34,897 nt of DNA from NCBI GenBank assembly GCA_001914815.1, contig MNDG01000163.1, positions 1 through 34,897 of the forward strand, given 5' to 3'. Position numbers and translations under genes: made by a program. The notes under the pieces are model-generated. The model was not told where the DNA came from. It did not search any database and saw only the letters and a program-made list of their open reading frames with translations. The DNA is from Acidobacteriales bacterium 13_2_20CM_55_8. Its GTDB lineage: Bacteria; Acidobacteriota; Terriglobia; Terriglobales; Acidobacteriaceae. Position 1 is the first letter of the stretch; every line of letters begins with the position of its first letter. Positions 15,519 through 28,559 of this stretch are shown piece after piece.

Positions 15519-16508
15519 TTGAGCTCACCAGCCATCATCAACGGCAAAGAAGTCTTTGAGTTGTTGCGCGACGACTTGGCCGCCATCGAGCGCGAATTCG
15601 GGCGCGACACGGTATCGAACGTCGAAGCCATCACGGAAATCGGCGAATATCTCCGCGCCGGCGGGGGCAAACGCATACGTCCCGCTCTGCTGCTGCTTTC
15701 TTCCCGACTTTTCAATTACCAGGGACGCGGCGCCATCCGGCTGGGCGCGGTAGTTGAAATCATCCACACTGCCACTCTCGTGCACGACGACATCATCGAC
15801 GAAGCGCAGACCCGGCGCGGCCGTCCCGCTGCAAACACTCAGTGGGGAAACTCCAAATGTGTGCTGGCCGGCGACTGGCTCTACATGCAGGCGTTCAAAA
15901 TCGCCGTGCAGGAACGCAATTTCCGTATTCTCGACACCCTGATCGAACTGACTCAGCAGATGGTCGAAGGCGAACTGCTGCAGATGGAGAAACTAGGCAA
16001 GCTGATCTCGCTGGACGAACACTTCGATCTCATCTTCCGCAAGACGGCGTGTCTATTCTCAGTGTGCATGCGGATGGGAGCAATTCTGGGGGAAGCCGCT
16101 CCCGAGCAGGAAGAGAGTCTGGCGCAGTACGGACGCGATCTTGGAATGGCATTTCAGATTGTGGACGATGTGCTCGATCTGACGGCATCGGAAAGCATTC
16201 TCGGCAAGCCCGTCGCCAGCGATTTGCGCGAAGGTAAAGTCACAATGGCGGTGATTCACGCGTTGGAACGCTGCACGTCTCCCGAACGCAAGTCGATTGA
16301 AACAGTAGTACGCGAGCAAGGCTTTGACGGAGTAACTCACTCCCAAATTCTTGCCATCCTCAATCGCTACGGATCACTGGATGCTGCCAGCGCACGTGCC
16401 ATGCAATACGCCGCGCTGGCCCGAAATGCGATTTGCGATTTTCCCGATAGCGAAATCAAGCGGGCGTTGTTGTGGGCGCCGGATTTCGTGGTGGCGCGGG
16501 AAAAATAG
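15519..16508 (+). CDS. trans-polyprenyl diphosphate synthase
   Basis: A 329-residue isoprenoid chain-elongating enzyme that condenses isopentenyl diphosphate units, probably making the octaprenyl or similar chain of menaquinone. The first Asp-rich motif DDIID is at 90-94 with the following RRGRPA, and the second DDVLD at 216-220. The GGGKRIRP substrate-binding motif is at 48-55. The start is TTG at 15519, with GAGGA upstream at a somewhat long spacing. It is 17 nt after the yajQ stop. Chain length cannot be fixed from sequence alone, so I give no gene symbol. Confidence 0.92.
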   Translation: MSSPAIINGKEVFELLRDDLAAIEREFGRDTVSNVEAITEIGEYLRAGGGKRIRPALLLLSSRLFNYQGRGAIRLGAVVEIIHTATLVHDDIIDEAQTRRGRPAANTQWGNSKCVLAGDWLYMQAFKIAVQERNFRILDTLIELTQQMVEGELLQMEKLGKLISLDEHFDLIFRKTACLFSVCMRMGAILGEAAPEQEESLAQYGRDLGMAFQIVDDVLDLTASESILGKPVASDLREGKVTMAVIHALERCTSPERKSIETVVREQGFDGVTHSQILAILNRYGSLDAASARAMQYAALARNAICDFPDSEIKRALLWAPDFVVAREK

Positions 16509-16556: not shown

Positions 16557-17464
16557 ATGCACGATGTTCTCTCATTGATTGCCCATCACGGCTACGCAGT
16601 GGTCTTCGTGGTCGTATTGTCTGAAGCCATCGGATTGCCAGTTCCGGCGGCAATAGCATTGCTGGCGGCGGGCGCAGCCGTTGCCTCGGGAGCTCTGAGT
16701 GCACCTGTGCTGCTGCTGGTAGCCGTGCTCGGCATGCTTGTGGGAGATTCCCTGCTTTTCGTTTTGGGCCGCCACATGGGATGGGCGCTGCTCGGCTGGC
16801 TGTGCAAATTATCCGTCAATCCGGAAACCTGCATCCTGCGTTCGGCCGAATCTTTTTACAAACGCGGCAAGATATGAAAATGGACCCGCTACTTTTCTTG
16901 CAGCTCGATGTGGCGGGTGCGACGCTTTACGCGCTGGCCTACGGAAGCCTGGGATTCCTGTTTCGCGATTTTCTGGTGGCGATAACGCATGGCTTCCAGA
17001 CAGCTAGTCGTGCGGTGGAGATGGTGCTGCTGCTCGGCCTGATCGCCTATATCGTTTACCGCGTACAGCTCTACCGCAAACACTCTATCTATCGCATCGT
17101 GCCGCGAGTGCAAGTCGAAGAATTAGCTCGCAAGCTGGCGTCAGAGGACAAGAGCAACGTTCTGCTGGTGGATGTCCGGAGCCATGGCTACTACGACCCT
17201 AATGCGGCTCGCATCCAAAATTCAATCCGCCTCGAGCCGAATAATTTGCCTGAAGAAATCAAGAATCTTCCAAAAGATAAAGATATTTACGTTTACTGTA
17301 CTTGAATGCGCGAAGCGACTAGCGCCCGGGTGGCGCACTTGCTGCGGGAAAAAGGATTCAACGCGTTTGTGCTTGTGGGAGGATTCGCAGCCTGGAGAAA
17401 AGCCGGCCAGGCTACGGAGCCGGTGCCTCGCGATGATCTGGTGAAACTGCCCACGTTTAGGTAG
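16557..17464 (+). pseudogene. VTT/DedA-rhodanese fusion gene with frameshift and in-frame TGA
   Basis: Three consecutive open segments make one recognisable protein: a DedA/VTT membrane domain (16557 to about 16870), the rest of that domain plus a rhodanese domain (about 16870-17302, +2 frame), and the rhodanese C-terminus after an in-frame TGA at 17303-17305 (17306-17464, ending TAG). The frame change near 16865-16875 joins SFYKRGK to MKMDPLLF. In homologues as I remember them, about 20 residues with a conserved AKFIPG-type re-entrant loop lie between, so a deletion of roughly 60-70 nt (length 3n+1) is likely. The TGA occupies the second cysteine position of the loop, YCT-(TGA)-MREATS. It may be selenocysteine or a nonsense change. 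Both flanks remain in good coding frame with no other stops. Confidence 0.75.
17322..17336 (+). promoter_or_regulatory. SECIS-like hairpin after an in-frame TGA
   Basis: A five-pair all-GC stem, GCGCC (17322-17326) with GGCGC (17332-17336), closes a CGGGT loop. The loop begins 21 nt after the TGA at 17303-17305 and has G as its second base. Bacterial SECIS elements, as I recall the consensus, have a small apical loop about 16-37 nt after UGA with a G in the first two positions. A competing pairing TGCGC (17307-17311) with GCGCA (17333-17337) is also possible. Function is unproven. Confidence 0.35.
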
Positions 17465-17501: not shown

Positions 17502-18092
17502 ATGGCTTCCCACAAAGAAGTTGAGATCAAGTTTTGTGTAGATGATCTCCGCCACCTCGCCCGCCGATTGCGGGCGGCTGGATTTCGACAAATTACGCCG
17601 CCCACTCAGGAGATGAACACTCTTTATGATTTGCCTGGTCAACCGCTGCGGCGGCGTGGAGAACTATTGCGTTTGCGCCGGTACGGTAAGGAATGGCTGC
17701 TGACTCACAAAGCCAAGGGCACGGCTGGCCGTCACAAGGCGCGCGAAGAACACGAGACCAAGATTAGCGATGGTAAGAAAATGGATACCATTCTCCGCGC
17801 CCTGGGTTTCGAACCTATGTTTCGCTACGAGAAATTTCGCGCCGAGTGGGATGATGGGAAGGGGCACGTAGTCGTTGACGAGACTCCCATTGGCAACTTT
17901 GGCGAGATTGAAGGACCGTCGCGCTGGATTGATGCGACCGCTCGTCGTCTCGGAATTGGACGCAATGACTACATCACTCAGAACTACGCGGGGCTATTTC
18001 AGCAGTGGAAGCAACGGACCGGAAGTCCGGCGAGAGAAATGACTTTCAAAGCAGTTAGACAAAGAAGATCGAGAACGCGAAAAAGCCGCTGA
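17502..18092 (+). CDS. CYTH domain protein (class IV adenylate cyclase CyaB / triphosphatase family)
   Basis: A 196-residue protein of the CYTH fold, a tunnel-shaped beta barrel that binds triphosphates with divalent metal. The signature ExExK is at residues 6-10 (EVEIK), followed by RRRGELLRLRRYG, THKAKG and the acidic VVVDETPIGNFGEIEG strand. Members include class IV adenylate cyclases, thiamine triphosphatases and inorganic triphosphatases, and sequence alone does not choose between them. The last 30 residues are strongly basic (RQRRSRTRKSR), beyond the usual fold, and could bind nucleic acid or polyphosphate (inference). It starts 37 nt after the broken VTT-rhodanese gene. Confidence 0.85.
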   Translation: MASHKEVEIKFCVDDLRHLARRLRAAGFRQITPPTQEMNTLYDLPGQPLRRRGELLRLRRYGKEWLLTHKAKGTAGRHKAREEHETKISDGKKMDTILRALGFEPMFRYEKFRAEWDDGKGHVVVDETPIGNFGEIEGPSRWIDATARRLGIGRNDYITQNYAGLFQQWKQRTGSPAREMTFKAVRQRRSRTRKSR

Positions 18093-26094: not shown

Positions 26095-26355
26095 GGCCTG
26101 TCGGGGTGAAACATAGCGACATCGAAGATGCACCGCTTTCTGCAAAGACCCTCGGGGGAAGGCCGACCACTTCACTAACGCATCGGAATATTCGATAGAA
26201 AACCCGTCGGAAACATCCCGATTGAGTTCTATTAAAAGGATCGCCGCGTCTCTGCCCTACCGAAAAATAGCGCCATCCCGCGTCGGCAGATTTTCCGCTT
26301 TCATTTGCCGCGCTCAAGCGTCCAACCTGCAACGCATGTTGAGCTGCGCCCTAGA
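26095..26355. other. intergenic region upstream of the DUF5916 gene
   Basis: With the NmrA promoter and leader this forms about 330 nt without a gene between divergent genes. An 87-codon minus-strand frame (26069-26332) has no protein-like features. I see no RNA gene, repeat or clear plus-strand promoter. Confidence 0.5.
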
Positions 26356-28559
26356 ATGAAACTGATTGTCAGCCTCGTGCTCGGCTATTCGCTGATAGTG
26401 GCGCTGACTCCCGTCTTGCTTGCTGACAACGTGCCCACCAGCTCCGATCGCTCAGCGGCAATTCCCCGCATGGCACAACCACCCACGCTCGAGGACTTCC
26501 TGACCATGGAGCCCAGCCCGCGCATGGCCGGCAAGATGGCGAGGATCGAGGGGTTTCGGCAATGGATTCCACACGACGGCGACCCCGTCAGCCAACGCAC
26601 TGTCGCCTATTTAGGCATCGTGACGACATCTGGGACGACGACTTTGTTGATGTCTGGATTGATAGCTTCCACGATCACCGCCGCGCTTACGAGTTTGTCG
26701 TCAATCCACTGGGGCTGCAGGGAGACGGCCTCGCGACCGACAACAATGAAGACTTCAGCTTTGACACGGTTTGGTACTCTCGCGGGCAGATCAACCAGCA
26801 AGGCTGGGTCGCCTGGTTTGCCATCCCATTTAAATCGCTGCGCTTCACCAAAGCACCGGTGCAGACATGGGGCATTACCCTGCAGCGCGAAATCCATCGC
26901 GCCAACGAGAAATCATTCTGGCCATATACCACGCGCCGCGAAGAAGGAATCATCTCCCAAAACGGCGAGATCCGAGGAATGGAAAACATTTCGCCCGGGC
27001 GCAACATGCAATTCATACCCTATGGCCTGTTTCGTTCCTTTCGTGGCCTTGATCTACGGGATCCTAACGTTCCAGGTTTCAATTCGCGTGCGGCAAAGTT
27101 CGATGGCGGGCTGGATTCCAAATTTATCCTCAAGGACAGCTTGGTCCTGGACACTACCATCGAGCCCGACTTCAGCCAGGTTGAATCCGACGAGCCGCAG
27201 GTCACCGTCAGCCAGCGCTTTGAAGTCTTCTTTCCAGAGAAACGTCCATTTTTTCAGGAAAATTCGAATTACTTCGATACGCCCATAAATTTATTTTTTA
27301 CACGACGTATTGTTCATCCGCAATTTGGATCGCGCCTCACCGGCAAGATAGGAAAATACTCGCTGGGCATGCTGCTGGCCGACGACCGCTCGCCCGGATT
27401 GCTGGTTCCCGATAACGATCCGCTCGCCAACAAACGCGCTTATTTTGCCATTGGGCGGATCAGCCGCGACATCCTGAAGGATTCCAATATCGGCTTGATG
27501 TACACCGATCGTGAGTTCGATGGCAGTTTCAACCGCGTCGGCGGTGTCGACGCCACCATCCGGCTATCGAAAACCGTGGTTAGCAGGTTTCAGGCGGTGG
27601 AGAGTTCCACTCAACAGACCGACGGCACATATCTCGCGGGTCCCGCATTTGAAGGTGACATCAGCCGCTTTGGGCACAGCCTCAACGCCGATCTTCACTA
27701 CAGGGGACGCAGCGACGGGTTCCGAACCGAGACCGGTTTCGATCCCCAGCCCGATATTCACAATGAGGATCTCAATGTCTGGTACAACTTCTGGCCTAAA
27801 AAGTATGTCCTGCGCTGGGGACCGCAGTTTGAGACCTATCGTATCGACGACCATGAAGGCAATCGCCTGAATTGGGGCTACATTCCGGAATTCTTTTTTG
27901 AGATGCCGCGGCAAACTCGTCTAACCCTGGGGTATGCCGAGGAAGCTGAGCTTCTCCGCCCGCGGGATTTCTCCGTCCTCGCCCAAAACCAGGATTTTCT
28001 CCGCAATACCAAGTTGTTCTTCTTCCGTACCGCGCCCAACAAGCAAATTATCTTTGATATCGACTGGCGCTGGGGCCGCCGCATCAACTACGCACCCCCG
28101 TCCGGCGTCGATCCGTATCTCGCGCGCCGCAACAGCGTGACCACCGATCTCAGTATCATTCCCACGAGTCACTTGCGCGTCGACAATACTTACCTTTGGT
28201 TCCGGCTGGGTGACTTCAACGACCGCGGTGCTGCGTTCAACAACCACATCATTCGCTCCAAGTGGAATTACCAATTCACGCCCAAGCTCTCGGCGCGCAT
28301 CATTATGCAGTATTCCGCCGTACTCGCTAACCCGGCCTTCACCAGCCTGGCCACGACAAAGAACCTGAATGCTGATTTTCTGATTTCTTACCTGGTCCAC
28401 CCTGGAACCGCAGTGTATGTCGGCTATAACAGCAACCTTCAAAACCTGGATCACGATCTTGCGCTTGACACTGATGGCAACCTGGTTCGCACACGCAACT
28501 CCTTCATCAACGATAGCCGTCAGTTTTTCGTAAAAGTTTCGTACCTATTTCGTTTCTGA
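26356..28559 (+). pseudogene. DUF5916 / carbohydrate-binding family 9-like outer-membrane protein gene, frameshifted
   Basis: A large exported protein split between two frames. The first frame starts at ATG 26356 with a signal peptide (MKLIVSLVLGYSLIVALTPVLLA) and the N-terminal lead PPTLEDFLTMEP through QWIPHDGDPVSQRTVAYLG. The second frame resumes at RDDIWDDDFVDVWIDSFHDHRRAYEF and runs to 28559 with the DUF5916 beta-barrel-like body (EPDFSQVESDEPQVTVSQRFEVFFPEKRPFF), ending in Phe. The switch is at about 26613-26620. In the family roughly 25 more residues separate these parts, so an internal deletion of length 3n+1 is likely. The remaining 640 codons are intact. An assembly error would restore a normal gene; otherwise it is a recent pseudogene. 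Confidence 0.75.

Follow-up and report, generated by a model that had tools for sequence, protein, structure and literature searches.

In rhodaneses, a cysteine in the active-site loop takes up sulfane sulfur. Rhodaneses whose loop has the form C-x-U (U is selenocysteine, or Sec) have been catalogued as NF041203, "rhodanese form 3" CxU (PMC13188914), and as COG0607 form 2, CxU (PMC9312934). A 2026 review gives four other forms of Sec rhodanese besides C-x-U, and none of them is described as a fusion to a DedA/VTT membrane domain. A rhodanese selenoprotein that is joined to a second domain is known in TsoB (NF045694, rhodanese/DsbD fusion-like), but TsoB has a UxxxxU motif (PMC13188914) and a DsbD-like partner domain.

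Fusions of DedA to rhodanese are known within COG0586, for example PA1209 of Pseudomonas aeruginosa. As these are described in the relevant passages of two papers (PMC10127716, PMC12893004), PF09335 is N-terminal and PF00581 is C-terminal, and the same passages mention no selenocysteine for the fusion. In PMC10127716, undecaprenyl phosphate is the presumed substrate that DedA proteins of COG0586 flip, and it is called unclear how their rhodanese fusions are tied to this role. The likeness of PA1209 to the protein described here is drawn from its published description. Ledgham et al. 2005, which PMC10127716 cites, reportedly connected a DedA protein, as a probable factor, with resistance to selenite.

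The Sec form of the DedA-rhodanese fusion is absent from the openly accessible selenoprotein catalogues that we consulted. Our search of openly accessible journal papers found no paper on DedA, rhodanese, and selenocysteine together, and for selenoproteins in Acidobacteriota the only directly relevant work that it found was deep-Sep. Within a single genome of this phylum, that study counts three known selenoprotein genes, and it makes no mention of rhodanese.

The gene that we describe lies in a window of 34,897 nucleotides (the whole stretch of DNA that was analysed) from Acidobacteriales bacterium 13_2_20CM_55_8. The best NCBIfam match of its product is NF041203 (rhodanese_LYCAU, rhodanese-related (seleno)protein; 85.5 bits, E 2.3e-24, below the curated cut-off of 115); its probable Sec has the same place as in this family, two positions beyond the cysteine of the loop. 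However, NF041203 is a single-domain model of 126 positions, while the family of the window protein has a DedA/VTT membrane domain as well, at the N terminus. The match to TsoB is weak (19.2 bits; cut-off 805).

Intact relatives are single proteins of about 320-330 amino acids that match both PF09335 (VTT/DedA) and PF00581 (rhodanese); L044 and L023, for instance, have both families in one protein. In the window, a break in the frame comes between the two domains (Table 1). The VTT half shares 56-75% identity with the corresponding part of relatives from other genera, and on its own it matches no Pfam family at E 0.01. The C-terminal part matches PF00581 at residues 84-176 (53.1 bits). AlphaFold gives this part a rhodanese fold (mean pLDDT 82, pTM 0.58; the full-length model is weaker, at 74.3), and Foldseek matches the model to BH2092, Alr3790, the Wolinella polysulfide-sulfur transferase, and the rhodanese domains of CoA-persulfide reductases. 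A catalytic cysteine is predicted at the start of the loop (Cys 142), as in active rhodanese sulfurtransferases. The gene order TatD-YajQ-polyprenyl synthase-DedA/rhodanese-CYTH is kept in most relatives with enough flanking sequence. (The CYTH neighbour scores 50.6 bits against TIGR00318, below the cut-off of 57.95.)

Table 1. Features of the DedA/rhodanese gene and its neighbours (positions in the window)
Feature	Position	Strand	Basis
trans-polyprenyl diphosphate synthase (neighbour)	15519..16508	+	
N-terminal half, DedA/VTT membrane domain, first open frame	16557..16871	+	similarity to the VTT part of relatives
Junction, 64 bases missing in the VTT core	16872..16876	+	DNA comparison with relatives
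C-terminal part: final helices of the VTT domain, linker helix, and rhodanese domain; its residue 144 is the putative Sec	16874..17461	+	PF00581, AlphaFold
Active-site loop motif C-T-U of the rhodanese (codons TGT ACT TGA)	17297..17305	+	conserved in relatives
In-frame TGA, very probably read as Sec	17303-17305	+	conservation in relatives and Sec machinery in the genome
Putative bacterial SECIS hairpin, GCGCC-CGGGT-GGCGC	17322..17336	+	comparative evidence
CYTH / class IV adenylate cyclase-like protein (neighbour)	17502..18092	+	TIGR00318 and conserved position

A conserved TGA in the rhodanese loop

An earlier note on this DNA had proposed that selenocysteine is encoded by a TGA in the rhodanese loop, with 52 more codons in frame behind it. 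The TGA does stand in frame, between ACT (Thr) and ATG, and the frame stays open for 52 codons to a TAG at 17462-17464, so that the read-through translation is ...KDKDIYVYCT-U-MREATSARVAHLLREKGFNAFVLVGGFAAWRKAG... The loop motif that the note had given, YC-x-C-x3-E, is right, and Y-C-T-U in this loop gives the C-x-U motif of NF041203. In an alignment with the solved rhodanese 6mxv, Cys 142 falls on the cysteine of the loop, and Sec 144 would be two residues further.

We searched 120 relatives for orthologues. The TGA is present in 33 of 36 close orthologues (at least 38% identity; 31 genera), and each of these 33 is at least 43% identical and has exactly one internal TGA; the three orthologues without one are from G057, G053, and G065. 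Across an alignment of 30 orthologues, TGA is confined to one column, and L023 alone has TGC. Another 19 genomes have TGA at the equivalent place in a more distant relative that is full-length and 27-37% identical. The 52 codons that follow are in frame in all relatives and are as conserved as the remainder of the gene. Across 396 surveyed genomes from the phylum, we counted by eye about 30 full-length TGA-bearing relatives, spread over about 11 families besides the window's own, as well as many Cys forms, which are concentrated in a few genera.

The TGA is thus not peculiar to this strain, and, as the note had it, it stands in place of a cysteine: a minority of homologues, mostly from genomes without tRNA-Sec, have Cys at the equivalent codon. 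An in-frame UGA that is conserved among homologues and replaced by Cys in others is what is expected of a bacterial selenoprotein. The Cys orthologue L023 is nested within the Sec clade. Our tree requires at least 8 changes between Sec and Cys, 4 of them forced by well-supported branches, although it is a quick tree with many open forks and one very long branch.

Single-domain rhodaneses with a C-T-U loop are also present among these bacteria, and one is in the window's own genome (L090:1297-1644, or G000:C24:5296-5643), with the same SECIS. This paralogue scores 107.8 bits against NF041203, which is also below the cut-off of 115.

The Thr codon before the TGA (17300-17302) is ACT in 26 of the 27 close TGA orthologues that have Thr there, and it is mostly ACC in Cys homologues. 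A constraint on the 5' context of the UGA is a possible reason for this bias.

The downstream hairpin

Bacterial SECIS elements are stem-loops directly after the UGA with a small apical loop that contains G (PMC1088965). The five-pair hairpin that the earlier note had pointed out is present and ends where it had said, at 17336, but its figure for the spacing differs slightly from ours: the stem (GCGCC at 17322-17326 and GGCGC at 17332-17336) starts at the 17th base after the TGA, and the five-base loop (CGGGT, 17327-17331) starts at the 22nd. As the note had also cautioned, hairpins are common in GC-rich DNA, and folding of this one by itself is unremarkable (z = 0.15 against shuffles). Because folding alone gave no signal, we turned to comparative evidence.

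At +6, +7, +9, and +10, where S, A, V, and A are encoded, all 29 orthologues with TGA that we compared have zero synonymous variation (AGC, GCC, GTG, and GCG), and the Arg codon between the hairpin arms, all three bases of which are in the loop, is CGG or CGT. The mean pairwise codon difference from +6 to +10 is 0.076, as compared to 0.60 in 62 other degenerate conserved columns, and none of 100,000 random sets of codons was as low. In a larger set of 68 TGA sequences, the second position of the loop is always G (68/68) and the five pairs are intact in 336 of 340 cells; the four pairings that are lost are all outermost ones. Two of the five pairs are invariant in this set and, having no variation, are uninformative either way. 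RNAalifold recovered only 4 of the 5 pairs. In contrast, Cys homologues keep the stem pairs in 71 of 105 cells and have all five in only 2 of 21 sequences, so the hairpin is broken in 19 of 21. The Cys orthologue L023 has a broken hairpin.

The middle pair changes from G-C to A-T on both sides in four sequences from two lineages: L086, L087, and L088 (family f10, VTT type) and L099 (a separate lineage, single-domain type). This change costs the protein an Ala to Thr and an Ala to Val substitution, and in these sequences the RNA structure is apparently driving the change in amino acids. We also scanned the 2.77 Mb genome for TGA-N16-GCRCC-N5-GGYGC, which matched twice, in the window gene and in the second TGA-bearing rhodanese; as a control, the backward pattern matched once. 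The hairpin is above chance because the codons of its arms are conserved and because the pattern is confined to the two rhodanese genes.

Selenocysteine machinery and a proposed mechanism

The earlier note had suggested looking for selA, selB, selC, and selD. The window's assembly, which is 67% complete and has 168 contigs totalling 2.77 Mb, contains the first three: SelA (546.3 bits), SelB (TIGR00475, 372.8 bits, over a cut-off of 242, with a further match to the SelB domain PF25461), and tRNA-Sec (Rfam, 67.9 bits; ARAGORN calls it tRNA-SeC). We did not find selD in this 67%-complete assembly. Its sister genome G001 and four other relatives (G007, G046, G050, and G069) do have selD, and the three genomes with a Cys orthologue are without it. 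The nearest named relatives are metagenome-assembled genomes of Acidobacteriota, several of them labelled Terriglobales. Within the window itself, neither Rfam at the gathering threshold nor ARAGORN had any match. A second tRNA-Sec-like match over the cut-off (on C75) was rejected, as ARAGORN calls it tRNA-Ser. The selD genes of G001 and the four other relatives have one in-frame TGA each, so SelD is probably a selenoprotein itself in these five genomes.

Counting one full-length protein per genome, tRNA-Sec is found in 47 of 52 genomes with the TGA form versus 7 of 29 with the Cys form (Fisher p 1.8e-9, a value that takes no account of common descent). In five TGA genomes no tRNA-Sec was detected. 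Three of these have SelB over the cut-off; the other two (G025 and G058, both incomplete, at 75% and 85%) do not.

Judged by comparison of sequences, the UGA in this gene is very probably recoded as selenocysteine, because dozens of related soil bacteria keep both the TGA and the recoding hairpin. The conserved TGA, the constrained and covarying hairpin, the exchange of Sec and Cys, and the co-occurrence with the Sec machinery together support this reading very strongly. The product would be a selenoprotein in which a DedA/VTT membrane domain is fused to a cytoplasmic rhodanese with the loop C-T-U. SelB with Sec-tRNA would bind the hairpin and insert selenocysteine at the UGA; otherwise the protein would stop in the catalytic loop and lose its last 52 residues.

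The first Cys of the loop is presumably the usual persulfide-forming cysteine of rhodaneses. At the inner membrane, the Sec two residues on might be its partner in redox chemistry or in the reduction of the persulfide: the selenol could form a selenenylsulfide with the loop Cys, or it could reduce the persulfide. We put this role forward tentatively, on the basis of how rhodaneses generally work. The DedA half may still flip undecaprenyl phosphate, or it may serve only as an anchor for the rhodanese. A broader and rather doubtful idea is that a C-x-U rhodanese coupled to a DedA lipid flippase is a membrane-bound selenoenzyme, widespread in Acidobacteriota, that acts on the transport of lipid carriers at the inner membrane, or controls it, through persulfide or redox chemistry that depends on selenium.

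Standard annotation ends each of these genes at the UGA, so that the last part of the rhodanese is lost and the predicted protein is cut in its active-site loop. Recognising the Sec form would bring out a well-conserved family of membrane selenoproteins in soil bacteria. Natural Cys and Sec versions coexist, which is material for testing what selenium contributes to a rhodanese. The decay of the hairpin where the codon turns to Cys is also a clean natural experiment in the evolution of SECIS elements.

Alternative readings and the interrupted membrane domain

The earlier note had reported a separate frameshift, and this is real in the assembly. The 64 missing bases are from the VTT core, where relatives that read through have the consensus T-L-x-x-A-K-F-I-P-G-V-N-T-M-A-P-P-L-A-G-S. 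Their loss causes a change of frame, and because of this, the first frame ends at a TGA at 16875-16877. This change of frame is separate from the TGA in the rhodanese loop.

If the gene were a decaying pseudogene, then the loop TGA would have arisen from a Cys codon by chance, as a nonsense mutation accompanied by a frameshifting deletion, and the broken VTT frame does look like this. But the identical TGA is found in more than 50 relatives, and this conservation refutes a chance origin for it. Furthermore, dN/dS between the window's genome and G001 is 0.15 for the VTT half and 0.12 for the rhodanese half, much like the neighbouring CYTH gene (0.14). Both halves are thus under purifying selection, and any decay of the gene must be recent. 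Leaving aside the 64-base loss, the note's worry about decay found no support in either half, and we consider a pseudogene exceedingly unlikely. That the UGA is a true stop, giving a truncated membrane protein that ends in the rhodanese loop, is very unlikely: UGA does also serve as a normal stop codon, and some relatives of this gene, for instance, end with it, but this would not account for the conserved reading frame beyond it or for the invariant codons of the hairpin arms. Those codons might instead be held by the protein or by codon usage rather than by RNA structure, since S-A-R-V-A is conserved in the protein and pairs that never vary carry no information by themselves. However, Cys homologues with the identical residues use other codons and have a broken stem, and the compensatory change to A-T alters two amino acids while keeping the pair, which makes this explanation extremely improbable. 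The selenocysteine reading was also open to failure if the genome had lacked Sec genes or if the TGA had been unique to this strain among Cys homologues, and neither was so.

A further alternative accepts selenocysteine at this codon throughout the family and differs only as to the state of the window's copy: the 64-base deletion may be real, either as a recent loss of function or as a truncated variant that starts inside the VTT domain. The assembly runs through the spot without Ns, and the second frame begins with an in-frame ATG at 16874. On the other side, both halves are under purifying selection, and G001 (the only genome of the same genus) has a gap of Ns over the same spot, which points to difficulty in assembly. 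We consider a real deletion quite possible, though somewhat less than probable. Because the loss interrupts the VTT half, the window's copy may be truncated or misassembled; the absence could be a recent lesion or an assembly error, and the sequence data fit both. Whichever it is, the selenocysteine reading of the loop codon stands as before.

The gap in G001 is a run of 21 Ns (L010:450-470, on G001:C21) that overlaps the site of the absent bases. Elsewhere in the window, two long frames of 327 and 665 amino acids overlap on the + strand at 26305-28559, and these may be one gene with a change of frame.
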